Shown: positions 1 to 29,003 of the stretch, piece after piece
Numbering within the stretch: position 1 is the first letter of the stretch
Layout: the number at the start of each line of letters is the position of its first letter
Source: Planctomycetia bacterium
GTDB lineage: Bacteria; Planctomycetota; Planctomycetia; Gemmatales; Gemmataceae
Assembly: GCA_005808665.1 (NCBI GenBank)
Contig: SYLG01000112.1
Coordinates: forward strand, 1-35,835
Direction of reading: 5' to 3'
DNA: 35,835 bases
Program-made: the position numbers and the translations under genes
Notes under the pieces: model-generated
Databases searched by the model: none
What the model saw: the letters and a program-made list of their open reading frames with translations, nothing else
Told to the model about the DNA's origin: nothing

Positions 1-171
1 GAAATTCAACCCCTCAAACCAAGGCAAATGGTTTAAATCCGTTCAGAGGATCTCTGAACAATTGCAAACCCCATTGTTAAAATCGCACAAGTAGCGGGAA
101 ATATCAAGTAACTTGGTCGGGACTACATGCCGTTTTGAACCCGACATACTCCAAATTCCCGGGAAAAACAT

Positions 172-236
172 CAATCAGGGTCCCAAAAAAGACCAAAAAA
201 TCGTAAAAAATCACTCCAACTGCGTAACTTGGGCTA
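172..236 (+). repeat. 65-nt intergenic repeat, left copy
   Basis: This stretch aligns without gaps to the reverse complement of 35228-35292, with 53 of 65 positions identical. The best conserved blocks are GGTCCCAAAA, CCAAAAAATCGTAA and AATCACTC. Both copies are intergenic and lie a few hundred bases upstream of a gene for a protein with the planctomycete LExR N-terminal motif. One frame stays open in both copies and shares 15 of 22 residues, so a decayed coding fragment is an alternative to a regulatory or REP-like element. Its function is unknown. Confidence 0.75.
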
Positions 237-561
237 AAACGGGATTGGCTATCGATACGGTCGGTGTGAAAACACGCACTTTTTTTCAAAAAAAACTTTC
301 CAAACCCGTCATCTTGCCTGGATCATGGGTTTGGGCGTTTTATCTTTTTTTCCTTCCCTTTTTCCGGAAAAAAACCATTCCGCTTTTCCAAAAAAAACAA
401 ACTCTTTCGCAATGGTCCCCGTATAGAATGGGTCGGAAACTTGGCATTTGGATTTACCGCTCCAAGGTCTATGGACCATTTCCATTACCCTTCGCAATTT
501 CTAAAAGCGAAGCCACCATAGCCTTGGGTAGGTGATTCAAAAGGTTGCGATTTTTCTATCA

Positions 562-600
562 GCACAGGATCGGGTCCTATTTTTCCTGCCGACCCTGTGC
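562..600 (+). promoter_or_regulatory. Strong hairpin in the chitinase leader
   Basis: GCACAGGATCGG (562-573) pairs with CCGACCCTGTGC (589-600), giving a 12-bp stem with one A-C mismatch and a 15-nt loop. It ends 19 nt before the chitinase ATG at 620 and leaves the likely Shine-Dalgarno AGGGA (609-613) free. No T-run follows on either strand, so it is a poor intrinsic terminator. It could be an operator or an mRNA 5' structure. Confidence 0.5.
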
Positions 601-619
601 CTGAATTTAGGGACCAAAC

Positions 620-20363: not shown

Positions 20364-21836
20364 CTAGCGGTGCTTTTTCTTGCGGCGCAACGCCGCACGA
20401 TCCCTGGGAGACAATCCCCCGTCCCCTTGGTCCTTAACGGCGATTTTTGCCCCCGGCATAAAACCACCCATTTTTCCCAAACCCGAAACCATACGGATTC
20501 GCTCCAACATGGACATCTTGGCTATGGGCCGCATAAACGATCGGATTTGGTCAAATACTGTGACTAATTGCTTGACCTCGGTTGCCTGGACACCACTTCC
20601 CTTGGCAATCCTCATCCGCCTTGCATAGTCAATATCATCGGGGTTCTTCCGCTCTTTGGTGGTCATCGAGTCGATGATCCCCTGGATTCGGCGGATGGAA
20701 GCCTCAGGGTCCTGATCCGCAGGCATCATTTCGGACATTCCGGGCATCGAGCCTAAAACATCCTTGAGCGGGCCCATCTTCCGAATCAGGGGAAGTTGTT
20801 GGCGGAAATCCTCTAATGTGTAGTCTCCCGCCTCCATCTTTTTCTGCTGGCGAGTGCGTTCTTCTTCGGTAATCTCCGATTGGACACGATTGACCTTTTC
20901 CACCAACGAAAGGATATCGCCCTGCCCCAAAATCCGTTGGGCCATACCCTCGGGCCGAAAATCCTCAAGCCGGTCAAGCTTTTCCCCCATCCCCACAAAT
21001 TTGATCGGTACTTTGGTGATCTCTTTGATGGAAAGGGCCGCACCACCCCTGGCATCTCCATCCAGTTTGGTGAGAATCACCCCATTGATTTCGAGGGCCT
21101 CATTGAAAGCACGGGCACTAAGGACAGCATCCTGACCGGTCATGGCATCGCAAACAAAATAGACCTGATCCGGCTGGATGGTTTTGTCGATCTGCCTGAG
21201 CTCATCCATGGGCATTTCGGCGACATGCAATCGACCCGCAGTATCCAAAATCACCGTGTCTAACAAAAGGCTTCTGGCTTGGGTAACGCCTCGCTTGCAC
21301 ACATCGATGGGGTTTGGTCCCAACCTGGCCCCGTCGGGACCAAACTTGACATCCTCGCGATAAACGGGGGTATCGACCTGCTTGCCAAGGAGTTCCAGTT
21401 GATCAATTGCCGCAGGCCTCTGAAGGTCGGCTGCCACCAGAAGAACCTTGCGTCCACGCTGTTTTAAATAAAGGGCAAGCTTGCCGGCTGTTGTGGTTTT
21501 GCCTTGGCCTTGAAGCCCACAAAGCATGATCACGGTGGGGCGCCCTTGCGCCACGGGAATCGTAGTATCGACCGGGCCCATCAAGGCTACCAATTCGTCG
21601 TATACAACCTTGAAAACCTGCTCGCCTGGGTCGAGGGATTTTAGAACTTCCTGGCCAATAGCCCGTTTGGTTACCCGGGTTATGAACGCACTTGCAACAT
21701 CCAGATGCACATCTGCATCCAAAAGTGCGGTCCGGACCTCATCCATGCTTTCACGGATATTCGCTTCGGAAAGACGACCCTTCCCGCGAAGTTTCCGTAA
21801 GGCCCCGGTCAGCGTTTTTTGCAAACCCTCAAACAT
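20364..21836 (-). CDS. ffh: Signal recognition particle protein Ffh (SRP54)
   Basis: Ffh (490 aa) binds signal sequences and 4.5S RNA and delivers ribosomes to FtsY at the membrane. The N domain (1-90) is followed by the GTPase domain: P-loop [10 protein letters not shown] (107-116, with Gln where Ser is commoner), DTAGRLH, and [10 protein letters not shown]. The methionine-rich M domain covers about 325-460, with [10 protein letters not shown] and [12 protein letters not shown] upstream of it. The basic tail [13 protein letters not shown] is unremarkable. ATG 21836 matches the family start MFEGL. It heads the operon and has its own promoter about 60 bases upstream. No SRP RNA gene is visible in the window. 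Confidence 0.97.
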
Positions 21837-21987: not shown

Positions 21988-23871
21988 TTATATCTTTTGA
22001 TCGTTCAATATATGATTAAGCAAGCCCCAATCGGGTCGATTCCTGGGACCAACCCCTTTATGGATGTCCCTTTGGATTTGTTCCAATTCCTCATCCTTTA
22101 CATAAGGAAGGCCTTTTTTTCGAATGCGCTCATACATGACGGCCGATGCCTCCGGTGTAAAACCGCTCCCCGGCTGATGCTCGATGTGGTAGATCGCCTG
22201 AGGTTCTTCAAAGACACATTCCGTCAAACCATTCGCAGCCGCCTGGTAAAGCAAGAGCGAATCAATGTGCATGGAAAAGCCATCAAACTCCCAGTAGCCA
22301 CCCAGCTGGTAAAAATCCTCTTTTGATAGCAGGGTAAAATCCCCACAGCCGTTGGTGTGCCAATGATTTTTTTTCTCCAGGTCATCATCACCCTTTGGAA
22401 ATCCCAAATCCCCATCAAGGTCATTTCCACACGAGGAGGGGGTTGGAAACGCCATTTGTCCGGATTTTGGTAGACGCAACAGGCTTCCCTTGAGAATGGG
22501 CCGAATCAACTCGTGCCAAAACCAATTCCACAGTGACCCAACTCTTGTCAGCCAACCAAAAGAAACCAGTTTTATCCCATCCGCCCGGAGGGCTAATACC
22601 CGTTGACCAGGGTCACCCGAAAAAGGTGCAATTAGGCCAGCAAAGGCAAGGCGCAAGACCACCCAACTTTTAACCGTATGGGGTACCCGAAGATGCAATT
22701 TCCTTCGGGACTCCAAGCGAAAGGAACCAAGGCACCCATTTATATGGTGGACAAACAGGCGTGCGGGAACCCCCAAATGGGAGGGACCGGGTGCCGCTTC
22801 AAGTTCTACCACCGATCCCGCAGGGACTGCCAGGAAGGTTTCCTTTTCAGCCCAACGAAAAAAAGGTTTTCCAGGTTCTTTTTCGACTTGATGCCAACCC
22901 TTACCCAACAAAATGCCCTGAGGAGAAAGCTGGGAGGATGATTTATCTTCCAAATGAAACGCATGAATCCGAATAACCAGCCAATCCCTGGCACCAGGCG
23001 GAAGGGAACCTGCCCGGACCCTAAGTTGGACCCGTGACCTGGCGGCCAACCCAAAAGGAATGCAATGCCTTTCCCTCTTGCAAAGCAGGACTCTATGGAA
23101 CAATTTTCCCTCTTCATCGCAAAAATCCAAGGGGAGCGACCCGGTGATGTCAAGGACCAAAGGTTCCAATTCCACCACCAAGGTGGGCTGGGCCTCGTAG
23201 ACTTGAAACCTGGCCAAAGGCTGCAAATACGAACCAATTCCCTGTTCCTCATGGCATTCGGAAAACCCGGAAAGGGGCCCGATGCGGGGGTCGATCACCT
23301 TTTCCCATTTGGGTTTGCCGTCTGGATGAACCCGAATGGTGCTTGCCGGTCGATTGTGTCGAAGTTGATTGCAATTGGCCCAGGCAAGCATCGCTTCAAC
23401 GCCTTGACCAAGGGGTATTTCGTTACGGACATCGGTTCGGTCAATTCGGAACAGGACCTTTGGGAACAAGTTTTTTTCGGCAAGATTTTGCACAAGGGCA
23501 TCGTTGAACAGGATGTCAACATTGGTGAATAAAAGAAATTTCCCTTTTGCCCGGCGTGCCCCCACATTTTTGGCAATCATCTGGTATAGTCCCATTTTAT
23601 TGCTATGTACCATGGTTCTGTGGACTTCTTCGGGTACGGTAATGATGCGGATGGATAACCCGCCACGCTCCTTTGGCCAGGCTAACGCCTCGGACAATGA
23701 AGGTCGATCCGGGGGTGGGTTCCATTCGACCAGGATTAATTCCGCACTCCAACCCCACCGTTCGGATTGCCCACAAAGGCCATCGATAAACGCTTGCATC
23801 CGTTGGAGCATGGAGCCGCCATGGTCGTCATTTCGCGAGGTGGCGATGATGCTAAGGTAAGGGTCGGTCAT
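21988..23871 (-). CDS. Split GT-A glycosyltransferase-like protein with beta-rich insert (paralogue B)
   Basis: The product (627 aa) resembles a family of GT2-like proteins starting with SIIATSRNDDHGG (residues 7-19). The N-terminal half (1 to about 195) has LVEWNPPPDRP (47-57) and TNVDIL (116-121), a likely metal/nucleotide-sugar site. The C-terminal half (about 503-627) has HTNGCGDFTL (505-514), HIDSLLLYQA (535-544) and YHIEH (561-565). Between them lie about 300 residues of beta-rich sequence, including GWHQVE and PFFRW (325-340). My reading is one catalytic domain interrupted by an insert. It acts presumably on a nucleotide sugar in the cytoplasm. It is homologous to the gene at 24145-25998, from which a 273-base structured spacer separates it. 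ATG 23871 has no good Shine-Dalgarno. The substrate is unknown. Confidence 0.7.
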   Translation of the reverse strand: MTDPYLSIIATSRNDDHGGSMLQRMQAFIDGLCGQSERWGWSAELILVEWNPPPDRPSLSEALAWPKERGGLSIRIITVPEEVHRTMVHSNKMGLYQMIAKNVGARRAKGKFLLFTNVDILFNDALVQNLAEKNLFPKVLFRIDRTDVRNEIPLGQGVEAMLAWANCNQLRHNRPASTIRVHPDGKPKWEKVIDPRIGPLSGFSECHEEQGIGSYLQPLARFQVYEAQPTLVVELEPLVLDITGSLPLDFCDEEGKLFHRVLLCKRERHCIPFGLAARSRVQLRVRAGSLPPGARDWLVIRIHAFHLEDKSSSQLSPQGILLGKGWHQVEKEPGKPFFRWAEKETFLAVPAGSVVELEAAPGPSHLGVPARLFVHHINGCLGSFRLESRRKLHLRVPHTVKSWVVLRLAFAGLIAPFSGDPGQRVLALRADGIKLVSFGWLTRVGSLWNWFWHELIRPILKGSLLRLPKSGQMAFPTPSSCGNDLDGDLGFPKGDDDLEKKNHWHTNGCGDFTLLSKEDFYQLGGYWEFDGFSMHIDSLLLYQAAANGLTECVFEEPQAIYHIEHQPGSGFTPEASAVMYERIRKKGLPYVKDEELEQIQRDIHKGVGPRNRPDWGLLNHILNDQKI

Positions 23872-23917
23872 AAAATAGTTCTACCGCTTGGGGTTTGTCC
23901 CTGCGAGCAATTGACTT

Positions 23918-23965
23918 TCAGGTTTGGACAAAAGTCGAGCCGACATGTCGGCTGAGAAAACCTGA
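23918..23965. promoter_or_regulatory. Nested inverted repeats with a perfect 16-bp palindrome
   Basis: AGCCGACATGTCGGCT (23938-23953) is a perfect palindrome. It is enclosed by TCAGGTTT (23918-23925) and AAACCTGA (23958-23965), which are perfectly complementary. A small GAC-AAAA-GTC hairpin sits on one side. It lies 47-94 bases before the ATG of the downstream glycosyltransferase gene, in its probable leader or promoter. It could be a dimeric-regulator operator or a branched RNA structure. Confidence 0.55.
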
Positions 23966-24099
23966 TAAAGTCGCAAAACCAAATCCAGCTCCGGCCAAAA
24001 AAGGGGAGCGTACCCTGCAAACCTCTTTAAAACGATTCAACGGCAAGGTGCCACAACCGCAAAAGAGGAACCCAACAGGGTAACCTGACTTCCCGGATG

Positions 24100-24139
24100 G
24101 GATACCATTCTGCCATATTTCGCCCCCAAGCTGGTATCC
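24100..24139 (-). terminator. Inverted repeat just after the first split glycosyltransferase gene
   Basis: GGATACCA (24100-24107) and TGGTATCC (24132-24139) are perfect 8-bp arms with a 24-nt loop, five bases past the stop codon of the upstream gene on the minus strand. No T-run follows it. It may stabilise the 3' end of the transcript or help termination. A weak AGGG/CCCT stem followed by T residues lies further on, around 23998-24016. Confidence 0.35.
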
Positions 24140-24144
24140 TCCCG

Positions 24145-25998
24145 TTATTGGGTCCCTCGATCCAAAGCCCGCTTAAACACCTCATCAAGGGTAATGACCG
24201 GAAGGCCCTCGGCCTTTAGGCGAGCCAAAAGCCTTTCCATTCCCTCGGGCGTAGCACCCAAACCATGTTCTATATGATAGATCTCCATTGTTGGTGAAAT
24301 CCGTTTCTCCCTTATCCCGGCATGGCGAAGCCGGTACAAAAAATCGGTATCCAGATTCAGCGAAAAGACCGGTTCCTCACTATGTCCACCTACCCGGAAA
24401 AAATCGTCCCGATCCACCAAAGTAAAGTCTCCACAGTTGTTCATGTGGACCGCCTCGGGCATGGCGGGAGGTAATTCGGCCGCTTCGGTTCTCCTTAACT
24501 CGCCACGCAAATAGGCACGAATATTTTTTAGCAAGGTAATTGGCCGCAAACCGAACAACCCATTGCCTAAAAGGTGAAAAAGCGAGGCCCCTTTTTCAGG
24601 ATTCCATTTGCCACCCAAAAGGGAGAAATTCAACACCCGATCATCCCTTGGGTCTTGTGTTTGGCGATACCCGGTGGGACTTGGAATAAGGCTTATTTTC
24701 GCCCAATCACGGCCTAACCGAGGGACATAAATCGACAACCGCCTCCTTCCGGCAATGGCAAAACTTCCCCATTTCCCAACGGAGTCATCCATGATGCTTA
24801 ACCAAAAAGCAACCATTCCTGTACCGGGTCCTGGCCCAATGTCCAATTGAAGGCTTCCTCCCCTGCTTCCCTTGGGAAAAGGTATTTCCAAACCGGATTG
24901 CCTTCCTGCCCAGCGAAAGGGAGTACCTTCAGGGGTTTTTTCGATCGGGTGCCAATCCCCGCGAAAAACCACATCCTCGATGATCTCAGGATCTTCATTA
25001 ATGGTTGCCCATTCCGTTTGCAGCCACGAATCCAAGGGACCCACCCCAGCAATAATCTGGTAAAGTGCCCAAGGGAGCACCAACGGGGTTGCCCGGGTGG
25101 GCAGGTTTCCCTTGGCGTTAAAGCGAATGGTTGGATCGCCCTTGCTTAAGGATTGTTTAATAAAGATCCGGGTCCGTTCCGAAAAAGTAACCGTTCCTGA
25201 TCTTTCCAATCCATTTGGTCCATGGATTTCCAATTGAAGGTGGCAAGGCTCAGGCCCCACTCCCGGCCCGGGGCCGACATCGAGCACGATTCCCTGGGCC
25301 AGGACTTGGGAATCCACATGGAGGAACGATTCGGTGGCGGATAAAACTTTTGCATTGGCTGGGTTCAGGCAGGCGGTAAAGTTCCGGCCAAGGTTAACCC
25401 CTAATACCTTGACAATACCGGGTTCCAAACGAAATCCGGTTTCAGTGACAGGGTAGGTTCCCACAAGTCCGTTATGGCGAATCTGATGCGTTTTTGCCCA
25501 TTGCAAAATGGATTCTGGCCCATCCTCCTTGGGGAAATCCGCCGCAATGTCCAGTCGATCGGTCCGATAATAAACCCCTTTTTCGGTGGGAATATTGGCT
25601 AAAAATTTTGCCATGTTGACTGAAAGGAGGATGTCAATGTTTGTAAATAAAAAATGCCTTCCCAATGCCATTCTGGCACCCCTGTTTTTGGCAATCATCT
25701 GAAATAGGGCAAGCTTCTCCGCATGGGGAAAGGTATTGTGGGTATAAGGTGGCACCTGAACAATGTTCACGGTCAAGTGAGGATTTGGGGCAGGGAGGTT
25801 TAACACCTCCGCCAAACAAGGACGATTGGGGGGAGGGTTCCATTCCACAAGAACCAATTCCCACCTTGGTTTTAAGTGGGCCGCATGGAAGGCAAGATTA
25901 TCTATCATTGCCTGCAACCGATCCAGAGGCCGATCCCCATGGTCATCGTTACGCGATGTAATGATAATGCTCAGGTCAACGGCTGGGTCAGGCAACAA
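24145..25998 (-). CDS. Split GT-A glycosyltransferase-like protein with beta-rich insert (paralogue A)
   Basis: The product (617 aa) is a diverged paralogue of the neighbouring 627-aa protein. N-half landmarks are IIITSRNDDHGD (11-22), LVEWNPPPNRP (50-60), QMIAKNRGAR (100-109) and TNIDIL (119-124). C-half landmarks are NNCGDFTLVDRDDF (520-533), NLDTDFLYRL (548-557, Asn replacing the His of its paralogue) and YHIEH (574-578). The middle, about 190-510, is beta-rich and itself repeated: LDVGPGPG (239-246) and LDIGPGPG (385-392) head similar stretches. GDWHPIE and PFRWAG (347-365) mark a second element shared with the paralogue. The start is probably TTG 25998 or the adjacent TTG 25995; no in-frame ATG fits. 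It follows the NUDIX gene by 12 bases, in the nucleotide-sugar operon. Donor and acceptor are unknown. Confidence 0.7.
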   Translation of the reverse strand: MLPDPAVDLSIIITSRNDDHGDRPLDRLQAMIDNLAFHAAHLKPRWELVLVEWNPPPNRPCLAEVLNLPAPNPHLTVNIVQVPPYTHNTFPHAEKLALFQMIAKNRGARMALGRHFLFTNIDILLSVNMAKFLANIPTEKGVYYRTDRLDIAADFPKEDGPESILQWAKTHQIRHNGLVGTYPVTETGFRLEPGIVKVLGVNLGRNFTACLNPANAKVLSATESFLHVDSQVLAQGIVLDVGPGPGVGPEPCHLQLEIHGPNGLERSGTVTFSERTRIFIKQSLSKGDPTIRFNAKGNLPTRATPLVLPWALYQIIAGVGPLDSWLQTEWATINEDPEIIEDVVFRGDWHPIEKTPEGTPFRWAGRQSGLEIPFPKGSRGGSLQLDIGPGPGTGMVAFWLSIMDDSVGKWGSFAIAGRRRLSIYVPRLGRDWAKISLIPSPTGYRQTQDPRDDRVLNFSLLGGKWNPEKGASLFHLLGNGLFGLRPITLLKNIRAYLRGELRRTEAAELPPAMPEAVHMNNCGDFTLVDRDDFFRVGGHSEEPVFSLNLDTDFLYRLRHAGIREKRISPTMEIYHIEHGLGATPEGMERLLARLKAEGLPVITLDEVFKRALDRGTQ

Positions 25999-26010: not shown

Positions 26011-26568
26011 TTAGGAATCTGCCAGGACCTCAGGATCAAGCGCCATTACCAATGCTATGGTTGCTGCGCCTGGCAAACCCTGGTATTCACCCTTTAAAAG
26101 CCCTTCACGGATCTTTTTGGGGGGAATGGTGACAACCGACAAACATTCGTGTGGATCGGGATCAAACGGAGCAAATACGACATCACGGGCAGTAAAAAGG
26201 TGCATCGCCCCGCAGCCACGGTTGGCATCAATGGAATATCGACCCAACGATTTCCAAACCCCATCAATGAATCCTGTTTCTTCGGCGAGTTCCCTTTTCG
26301 CTGCCTCAAGGGGAGATTCCCCCGGATCGACAATTCCCCCCGGAGCCCAAAGAGATTGGGCTTTGAGGCCTGGGCGCCAAGCGTCAACCATGACGATGGA
26401 TCCGGTCGTTGTCCGGGCCAATACCATGACAAAGTCCGGAAAATCCACATGCCAAAAATCATGAAGCCGCCTTCCTGTGGGTAATAGATATTCCACTTGG
26501 CGGACCGTTAGCCATGGGGGGCAATCAAGGACCACCCGCTCGGCCTCAACAATCCATGGGGTATTCAT
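26011..26568 (-). CDS. NUDIX hydrolase
   Basis: The protein (185 aa) carries a complete Nudix box, GGIVDPGESPLEAAKRELAE followed by ETGF, with the expected catalytic glutamates. It resembles the ADP-ribose/nucleotide-sugar pyrophosphatase branch more than the MutT branch. ATG 26568 is chosen because it falls ten bases after the stop of the sugar dehydrogenase and gives the family-like start; a longer frame only reads into that gene. It sits between the nucleotide-sugar dehydrogenase and the first split glycosyltransferase. A role in hydrolysing excess nucleotide sugars or acting as a sugar-nucleotide housekeeper fits the context but is inferred. Confidence 0.88.
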   Translation of the reverse strand: MNTPWIVEAERVVLDCPPWLTVRQVEYLLPTGRRLHDFWHVDFPDFVMVLARTTTGSIVMVDAWRPGLKAQSLWAPGGIVDPGESPLEAAKRELAEETGFIDGVWKSLGRYSIDANRGCGAMHLFTARDVVFAPFDPDPHECLSVVTIPPKKIREGLLKGEYQGLPGAATIALVMALDPEVLADS

Positions 26569-26578
26569 GGGGCGACTT

Positions 26579-27952
26579 TCAGGATACCTTAAACGGTTGG
26601 ACCAAGGGTGGGGAAAAAGACTTGTTGGCAACTTTTTGGACATCCCCTGTTCCAAGGGCAATGACTTTTGCAACATCCGCAAAATCAGATAATTTGTTCA
26701 GCCTCCAACAATCCAAAATCACCTTTGGCCGTTTGGATTCGCACAACACCTCGCGGGGGAGGTTGCCATATTCCGCACAAGGAAGGGCAACAATGATTAT
26801 GTCCGATCGCTTGCAACATTCCTCAACCGAATCGGTAAACTCAATGTCCTGATTCATTGACATGACTGCAGGAATCCTGGCGTGAAAATCGTGGGCAATG
26901 ACCGGGAGGCCTCGCTCGGCAAGAGCGTCCGCCAAGGCAATTCCGAACGATTTTTCCACGACATTAGTGCCCGGTTTGTAGGCGAGCCCGAGGATGCCGA
27001 CAGTCAATCCACGGGGATCAAGGTTGTTAATAATGGTCAGCACCCGATCAAGTTGGGAATTGTTTATCTTGTCAGTAGCTTCTGGAAGTGCCATTTCTTT
27101 ACCCAGGTCCATTCCCAATCGGGCAAGGGCGCGATTGTCACGGGGAAAGCATGGTCCTCCGAAGGAAACCGATCCCCGAAAGTATTTGGCTCCAATGCGA
27201 CTATCATGCCCCAGTGCCTTGGTCACATCATCGACATTGCCTTCAGGGAAATTTTCACAGATGGAAGCGATCATATTCGCAAAAGAGATCTTCATAGTTA
27301 CAAAACTGTTCAGGGAAATCTTGGTTATCTCCGCGTTAACAATTGCCATTCGGGAAATGCCAGGGTTGCTTTGATGGAGCGTCTGGTAAAAATCGGCCAG
27401 CAATTTGCCGCTTGCCGAATCAGACTCTCCGATCAATACCAGATCGGGGTGCAGAAAATCGCGAATACAAGTGCCAAGCGCAATGAATTCGGGGGAATAA
27501 CAGACACCGATATTGCTGCCTACTTTCTGGCCCGATGCACTTTCCAACGCCTTGATGAAAACCGCATCGGTGTCCCCGGGCATTACCGTACTGGTAAGGA
27601 CCACAAGGTGTGGATCGGTACGGCCCAATAGTGCAAAGCCGATTTCCCTTGCGGCGGCTTCCGCATATTTCATCGAAAAGGAACCGTTTTTTTCGCTTGG
27701 AGTGGGAACAATGACAAAAGAAATGCGACTGTTTTGTACAGCCTCGGCGAGGTTCGATGTGGCCCTTAACCGCCCACCTGTTTGAAGGAGCAGTTCTTTT
27801 AATCCCGGCTCAAATACAGGGGGTTCAAGGCGATTGATTTTCTCCACCGTGGCAGGAACCATGTCCACACCGATGGTGTTATGGCCCAGGGAGGCAAAGA
27901 TCGCCGCCATGGGAGAACCGAGTTTACCCAAACCAATGACGGCAACATCCAT
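26579..27952 (-). CDS. UDP-glucose/GDP-mannose dehydrogenase family protein
   Basis: The protein (457 aa) belongs to the family that oxidises a nucleotide-sugar C6 alcohol to a uronic acid in two NAD+-dependent steps. The Rossmann motif GLGKLG (7-12) is followed by VDMVPATVEKIN. The catalytic cysteine is Cys268 in SFGGPCFPRDNRAL, and the lysine-containing KISLNSFVTMKISFANMI helix is present. Either UDP-glucose or GDP-mannose may be the substrate; the sequence does not settle it. ATG 27952 is preceded by GGAG. It lies 55 bases after gmd and ten before the NUDIX gene, so the three form an operon. The product would feed the neighbouring glycosyltransferases. Confidence 0.92.
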   Translation of the reverse strand: MDVAVIGLGKLGSPMAAIFASLGHNTIGVDMVPATVEKINRLEPPVFEPGLKELLLQTGGRLRATSNLAEAVQNSRISFVIVPTPSEKNGSFSMKYAEAAAREIGFALLGRTDPHLVVLTSTVMPGDTDAVFIKALESASGQKVGSNIGVCYSPEFIALGTCIRDFLHPDLVLIGESDSASGKLLADFYQTLHQSNPGISRMAIVNAEITKISLNSFVTMKISFANMIASICENFPEGNVDDVTKALGHDSRIGAKYFRGSVSFGGPCFPRDNRALARLGMDLGKEMALPEATDKINNSQLDRVLTIINNLDPRGLTVGILGLAYKPGTNVVEKSFGIALADALAERGLPVIAHDFHARIPAVMSMNQDIEFTDSVEECCKRSDIIIVALPCAEYGNLPREVLCESKRPKVILDCWRLNKLSDFADVAKVIALGTGDVQKVANKSFSPPLVQPFKVS

Positions 27953-28007: not shown

Positions 28008-29003
28008 TTAGGCTGCTCGACGAATGGGACCCAAGGCGGTTAATCGCTTGAGATCGGCATCCACCATCATTTTAATCAAACCGGAAAAGTCCACTTCCGG
28101 CATCCAACCTAGCTTGTTTTTTGCGTGATTTGGGTTGGAAAGCAACAAATCCACCTCGGCCCGTCGATAGAAGGCGGGGTCCACAACGACATACCTTTCC
28201 CAGTCGAGACCGACATGACCAAACGCAAGCTCACAAAACTCCTGAACGCTGTGGGTTTCCCCGGTTCCGATGACGAAATCCTCGGCCTGGTCTTGCTGGA
28301 GCATAAGCCACATTGCCCGGACATAATCCCCGGCAAATCCCCAGTCACGACGAGCCTCCAGATTGCCAAGTCTCAATTCTTTGGCTTGTCCTAATTTAAT
28401 CCGGGCAACCGCATCGGTGATTTTGCGGGTTACAAACTCGATTCCCCGGCGGGGGGATTCGTGGTTAAACAGAATTCCCGAACAGGCATACATGTCGTAG
28501 CTTTCGCGGTAGTTCATGGTGATGTAATGGCCATAGGCCTTGGCCACAGCATAGGGAGAACGCGGGTGGAACCGGGTCGTTTCACTCTGGGGGGTTTCCA
28601 CCACTTTGCCATACATTTCGCTGGAACTTGCCTGGTAAAAACGGGCTTGGGGACAAGTGAGACGCATCGCATCCAAAACCCGGGTTACCCCCAAACCGGT
28701 TACCTCACCGGTTAGGAGAGGCTGACCAAAAGAGGTTGGAACAAAGGATTGGGCTGCCAAATTGTAGATTTCATCCGGTTTGTATTTGGCAAAAATTTCC
28801 ATGAACGAACTTTGGTCCAACAGGTCACCCTGGGCAAGTTCAATCCTGCTTTCTATGTGCCCAATTCGTTCCGTATTGGGGGTACTTAATCGGCGAACAA
28901 CCCCAACCACCTTATAGCCCTTTTCCAGTAACAATTCTGCCAGGTAACTTCCGTCCTGACCTGTAATACCTGTAATGACTGCCGTCTTGCCCGCCTGCGC
29001 CAT
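28008..29003 (-). CDS. gmd: GDP-mannose 4,6-dehydratase
   Basis: This extended short-chain dehydrogenase (331 aa) converts GDP-mannose to GDP-4-keto-6-deoxymannose, the precursor of GDP-fucose, GDP-rhamnose and related sugars. [16 protein letters not shown] (10-25) binds NADP. SSSEMYG (126-132) holds the catalytic Ser/Thr-equivalent and Glu, and the YxxxK motif is Tyr151-Lys155. [10 protein letters not shown] and [17 protein letters not shown] are Gmd-specific. ATG 29003 has GGAG seven bases upstream and a promoter-like pair further up. A matching 4-reductase or 3,5-epimerase is not present in the window, so the final sugar is unknown. Confidence 0.95.

Follow-up and report, generated by a model that had tools for sequence, protein, structure and literature searches.

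The lectin domain of GalNAc-transferases and of MGAT4A is C-terminal and not inserted into the catalytic part. These enzymes combine a GT-A glycosyltransferase (GT) domain with a sugar-binding lectin domain (PMC4432651, PMC9296478). Acceptor specificity in GT-A enzymes is attributed to three hypervariable loops; hypervariable region 2 (HV2), placed between strands beta6 and beta7, is among those tied to it (PMC7185993). An insert that breaks up a GT-A catalytic domain is known from PGAP4 (GT109), a eukaryotic Golgi enzyme; it has ~47 residues and consists of two tandem transmembrane helices, and the authors of that study noted that the occurrence of such a topology in further enzymes had yet to be established (PMC5785973); PGAP4 was the sole precedent found in our literature search for split GT-A folds. 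The present analysis concerns two paralogous genes on contig SYLG01000112.1 of a Gemmataceae planctomycete (GCA_005808665.1), analysed as a window of 35,835 nt, whose products are well supported as GT-A domains split by an insert of globular modules. Unlike PGAP4, which has no such series, this family carries predicted beta-sandwich modules in zero, one or two copies. The core fold and the sandwich fold are of known kinds, while their combination, globular modules inside HV2 in variable number, is a new variation on them.

Coordinates below are those of the window, and residue numbers those of the 627-aa or 617-aa product. The open reading frame at 21988-23871 starts with ATG and encodes 627 residues, and that at 24145-25998 starts with TTG and encodes 617 residues; both are open throughout and lie on the minus strand, as do all features located within them. 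The two proteins were 46% identical over their first ~180 residues and 40% over their last ~90, with one patch of 33% identity between. In both, the N- and C-terminal blocks are set 314-324 residues apart, in agreement with the ~300 intervening residues claimed in an earlier note made from the sequence alone. The motifs listed there were all located where it had placed them, GWH excepted: SRNDDHG (12/15 in the 627-aa/617-aa proteins), LVEWNPPP (47/50), the metal-site-like TNVDIL at 116 and TNIDIL at 119, CGDFTL (509/522), HIDS at 535 and NLDT at 548, and YHIEH (561/574), in the same order of proteins throughout. The supposedly shared GWH element is present in the 627-aa protein and reads DWH in the 617-aa protein. 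A gene-fusion or frameshift artefact was rejected, as internal stops are absent and the same architecture occurs in orthologues from two genomes of the same genus. A recent foreign insert was likewise rejected on composition, the GC content at third codon positions being alike in the insert (0.46-0.59) and the core (0.51-0.55).

Relatives were sought in viral contigs and planctomycete genomes with a search profile made of the two outer blocks (A2). Both blocks were contiguous in proteins from viral contigs (L068, 292 aa; L069, 313 aa; L070 and L094-L096, ~300 aa) and in planctomycete relatives (G487, G422, G448 and G361, and also G049, where the gene is cut by contig ends). One- and two-module homologues in other planctomycetes showed the split that the earlier note proposed to look for. 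The distance from the TNxD motif to the GDF of CGDF grew stepwise with module number, from 59-135 residues in compact members to 297 in G019, an intact one-module member, and 392-460 in two-module members; G001B, at ~400, falls within the two-module range, its tabulated value of 517 being an artefact of an early TNIDL match. At the level of sequence, homologues with and without the intervening stretch thus prove it to be an insert, and the homology of the two blocks of the 617-aa protein (residues 1-187 and 513-617) to one continuous GT-A domain of ~300 residues is established.

Members of this protein family are sparse: at E 1e-10 they were detected in 9 of 95 genomes from the same taxonomic family and in 9 of 392 across the phylum, a few of them distant relatives. 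Searching PHROGs with the compact viral proteins returned no family, save one weak and unlikely match, and GenBank phages searched with the compact protein L068 gave no match. The plasmid search returned solely Azospirillum 'hypothetical proteins' with a continuous core at 26% identity. On an Azospirillum brasilense plasmid (L114:3998-6622), such a distant compact core stands at the start of an 874-aa 'hypothetical protein', whose gene has glycosyltransferase, epimerase and FkbM methyltransferase genes as neighbours. A compact copy of the core also opens a protein of at least 1954 residues on a viral contig (L067:4911-10774), which appears to contain further GT-like, methyltransferase-like and repeated segments, as in a multi-enzyme glycosylation protein.

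The 617-aa protein was modelled with AlphaFold2 from 11 aligned sequences that came from the window, genome contigs and viral contigs. Block means of the predicted local distance difference test (pLDDT) were 72-96 for residues 10-170 and mostly 77-87 for residues 521-580, and the insert was predicted poorly. In this model the two blocks pack together, as the earlier note had predicted for one GT-A domain split by an insert, and the compact homologues agree. With VIA-align, both blocks together matched the chondroitin polymerase K4CP (Z 20.6, root-mean-square deviation 3.5, 234 residues, model 1..616) and SpsA (Z 17.4, 223 of 239 residues), as well as numerous enzymes of GT2 and GT27. Model and fold comparison thus gave a single alpha/beta/alpha GT-A core from both blocks of the 617-aa protein, and, together with the zero-, one- and two-module homologues, a GT-A domain interrupted by an inserted element; two separate domains in place of one were rejected on the compact homologues and the fold comparison. 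The N-terminal half of the core comprises residues 1-187 (25438..25998), supported by homology to the compact continuous cores, pLDDT of ~90 and the fold match to K4CP and SpsA. The C-terminal half comprises residues 513-617 (24148..24462), with the CGDFTL strand, the D550 helix and the YHIEH strand, and is supported by homology, the model and the fold match. The 627-aa core was assigned to the same fold by homology, its N-terminal half being residues 1-184 (23320..23871; 46% identity to the paralogous block) and its C-terminal half residues 499-627 (21991..22377).

Among described GT2-like GT-A enzymes (K4CP, SpsA, Leptospira 6p61, RmlT and TarS), the core fold is common over ~190-234 residues including both blocks (Z 16-21), and the acid at the xED position and the C-terminal His are also found in the window proteins. 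The latter differ from them in their low identity (11-16%), in having NxD for DxD and in the 314-324-residue insert in HV2. In the model, the insert is located between strand 148-151, with its following helix, and strand 525-529; the order of elements suggests that this break site corresponds to HV2, the acceptor region of GT-A enzymes. The DxD-like metal/donor motif TNxD (N120-I-D122 of the 617-aa protein; 25633..25641) lies at the expected strand end with N in place of the first D, and its N120 and D122 are conserved without exception in 11 sequences, compact viral ones among them. Equally invariant in the 11 sequences are D550 at the xED position (24349..24351), at the start of helix 549-559, and H578 at the C-His position (24265..24267), after strand 573-576; both positions were assigned from the order of elements rather than from superposed coordinates.

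Pfam matches were consistent with a split domain and remained below the curated cut-offs. The GT2_2 match of the 617-aa protein improved from E 0.067 to E 0.0063 on removal of the insert and then spanned the junction, below cut-off; PF10111 with the insert removed scored 16.5 bits against a cut-off of 27.3; and neither PF00535 nor PF10111 reached its curated cut-off with the 617-aa core. The C-terminal half of the 617-aa protein also matched Glyco_transf_7C weakly (E 0.023), and sequence searches of the PDB with core and module profiles returned nothing relevant. We take the products of both genes to be GT2-like GT-A glycosyltransferases, from a family recognised by neither Pfam nor NCBIfam.

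The insert is built of a recurrent module of ~120 residues, marked by the signature G-W/F-x-x-x-E, F-R-W and by a strand that contains GPGP. It corresponds to no Pfam model, and no sequence match to the described carbohydrate-binding module (CBM) families of Pfam was found for any of nine modules. In the 617-aa protein, the second, intact module (residues 342-465; 24604..24975) is an eight-stranded sandwich in an AlphaFold2 model of the module alone and matches the module hidden Markov model (HMM) at E 3.5e-35, the HMM including this protein's own sequence; in the 627-aa protein the second, intact module (residues 318-435; 22567..22920) matches at E 7.7e-29. The first modules are degenerate and their bounds approximate. 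That of the 617-aa protein (~residues 200-325; 25024..25401; hhalign E 6.6e-5, prob 64%) kept the GPGP strand LDVGPGPG and lost GW..E..RW, and that of the 627-aa protein is strongly degenerate (~residues 220-312; 22936..23214; hhalign E 1.5e-4, prob 52%). Their single-sequence HMM scores are near noise (independent E-values of 0.0037 and 0.29, respectively).

The LD(V/I)GPGPG repeat described in the earlier note was found in the 617-aa protein as LDVGPGPG at 239 and LDIGPGPG at 385, 146 residues apart. A chance repeat was rejected, the second copy being the conserved strand of the module. As the first copy is decayed yet still weakly matches the module profile, the repeat is most likely the trace of a tandem module pair with a decayed first copy. 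Two complete copies were found in each of two paralogues in G024, and two copies in G237; G019, G045, G108 and G195 had one module in the sequence portions covered. The second module scored well above noise in every module-bearing protein. G045 has what appear to be two paralogues (L031:5991-7040 and L030:1-1092), both truncated where their contigs end; as the L031 fragment seems to open with the end of a further module, it may be a two-module member.

The same module also occurs outside this family. Weak module-HMM matches from further planctomycete genomes (per-genome E 1e-5 to 1e-2) included C-terminal modules with GF(Y)..E..FRW in GT2 proteins (L079, L080, L083, L084), in a GT4 protein (L104), in GT-looking membrane proteins (L081, L082, L101) and in a beta-helix-like protein (L102), and an N-terminal module on a radical-SAM-like protein (L100). 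The GT2 label of L084 and L079 comes from Pfam, and the GT4, membrane, beta-helix and radical-SAM labels from a reading of the sequences. An alignment of six end modules matched the insert profile over its full length (prob 97.7%, E 2e-12); as these six had been picked through insert-profile matches, the first part of this match is partly circular, and its later part lies outside most of those matches. By HMM and profile-profile comparison, the planctomycete GT2, GT4 and membrane GT-like proteins thus carry the same module, appended to the catalytic domain, whereas in the window proteins it interrupts that domain. A plasmid search with one GT4-attached module returned nothing. Judged by these sequence matches, the module is a recurrent, mobile accessory of bacterial glycosyltransferases that deserves a family of its own.

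Modelled alone from three sequences (pLDDT 62.6, predicted template modelling score 0.60), the module was predicted, with moderate confidence, as an eight-stranded beta-sandwich of the jelly-roll type. Foldseek returned the carbohydrate-binding domain of BcsB, CBM35 and CBM36 (E 7e-4 to 9e-3), and structural comparison of this model gave Z 8.1-8.5 to the BcsB/CBM group (BcsB 8.5, CBM35 8.4), with many CBM35 structures, but also capsid, tail and MAM domains, within the top 50. The predicted fold is thus similar to the BcsB, CBM35 and CBM36 jelly-rolls, and no ligand or calcium site was located in the module. Of the inserted carbohydrate-binding or acceptor module that the earlier note had envisaged, the jelly-roll nearest BcsB and CBM35/36 and its place in the acceptor region were thus recovered, from a model of moderate confidence at Z of ~8; the carbohydrate-binding reading is suggestive only.

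Overall, we consider it rather probable that the window proteins are polysaccharide-synthesis GT-A enzymes, acting probably on a surface polysaccharide, with sugar-binding modules in the acceptor region. The nucleotide-sugar donor would be held by the TNxD motif of the core, D550 would probably serve as the base, and H578 would be a metal or diphosphate ligand. The module would be a carbohydrate-binding jelly-roll that keeps the glycan under synthesis, probably a lipid-linked one, above the active site, and might thereby determine the acceptor, or the stretch of polymer, to be extended; the glycan would be bound in the window proteins by the intact second module, the first having decayed. The split-domain architecture is well supported; glycan binding and acceptor specificity are putative. 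Several observations weigh against this reading. Compact members presumably work without a module, the metal motif is NxD and not DxD, and because the core stays below every glycosyltransferase cut-off in Pfam and NCBIfam, catalysis itself is something we infer. Concerning the module, the best match by Z was a phage baseplate domain (9.5), a Z of ~8 from a three-sequence model at pLDDT 62.6 is within the range of unrelated sandwiches, and the conserved R-W could be structural.

The last points also bear on another explanation, a serious though unlikely one, in which the modules are assembly or scaffolding domains that mediate oligomerisation or docking to the polysaccharide machinery with no glycan contact. 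Protein contacts are a frequent function of jelly-roll sandwiches, and at Z 7-9 the module model is also similar to domains of viral capsids and phage tails and to MAM domains. The residues conserved in the module (R, W, GP) are such as may have a structural role, and the module is fused to unlike enzymes, including the radical-SAM-like protein; most of the fusion partners found are, however, glycosyltransferases or polysaccharide-type enzymes, and the insertion point is the acceptor region. A segment that follows the last module and precedes the C-terminal core raises a different prospect, as it is strongly amphipathic and mostly basic in most module-bearing members. In the 617-aa protein it is a basic, amphipathic helical linker (residues 474-497; 24508..24579), predicted as a helix at low pLDDT and with a hydrophobic moment of rank 0.98 within the protein, and in the 627-aa protein the segment TRVGSLWNWFWHELIRPI (residues 442-459; 22495..22548) has the highest hydrophobic moment of the whole protein. 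In the preferred reading, this segment may rest on the inner membrane. It is improbable that membrane docking is the main function of the insert, with the modules as spacers: in winA, G001A, G002A, G024a, G019 and G195 the strongest amphipathic 18-mer of the whole protein does come after the last module and before the CGDF strand, and the first module is decayed in both window proteins, but the second module is kept well above noise in every module-bearing protein, as would not be needed of a mere spacer, and the segment, whose helix is of low confidence, was looked for in a limited stretch. That one or both proteins are inactive pseudo-glycosyltransferases retained for binding, as the replacement of DxD by NxD and the decay of one module in each could indicate, is highly improbable given the invariance of N120, D122, D524, E541, D550, H575 and H578 in compact and split members alike (11 sequences).

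With sugar-binding modules in the acceptor region as the preferred reading, a more far-reaching version is possible but doubtful, namely that a mobile, undescribed sugar-binding module was captured inside the GT-A acceptor region and is gained and lost as a cassette in zero, one or two copies. If this were true, acceptor recognition would be altered by whole-domain insertion and not by loop change, and module number would set the length or type of the acceptor. Whole modules would here replace one hypervariable loop, and the natural zero-, one- and two-module series offers a test of specificity evolving by domain insertion. The locus also points to a recurrent accessory module and a glycosyltransferase family, neither of them recognised by Pfam or NCBIfam.

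In the core tree, module-bearing and compact members were clustered but interleaved, and the best tree needs three changes; a single module-bearing clade was marginally disfavoured in the approximately unbiased test (p 0.056). As the compact members G049, G487 and G422 are placed, with moderate support, among planctomycete proteins that bear modules, the phylogeny suggests that module loss is possible as well as gain.

The 617-aa gene stands in a row with genes encoding a NUDIX hydrolase (26011..26682; PF00293 E 8e-12; also linked in G001, G024 and G237), a nucleotide-sugar dehydrogenase (26579..27952; TIGR03026) and a GDP-mannose 4,6-dehydratase (28008..29003; TIGR01472 E 3e-129, above cut-off), all three on the minus strand, and a GT4 gene lies further upstream. 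As the dehydrogenase is linked to the split-GT family in eight genomes (window, G001, G024, G019, G049, G487, G422 and G195), whose members occur with or without modules, the neighbourhood supports a role in polysaccharide synthesis, and the same linkage suggests uronic acid in the product.

The tandem arrangement is not conserved: in G001, of the same genus, the two genes are on different contigs, and the 7.6 kb upstream of the 627-aa homologue hold no 617-aa homologue. As the two homologues do not adjoin there, the 627-aa and 617-aa proteins are separately maintained, conserved lineages within the genus. This fits different roles for the two proteins; the two linkage specificities proposed in the earlier note would be a guess. 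In each of three genomes from this genus the 627-aa gene adjoins ffh (signal recognition particle GTPase, 20364-21836 in the window), although G001 otherwise has different genes around it.

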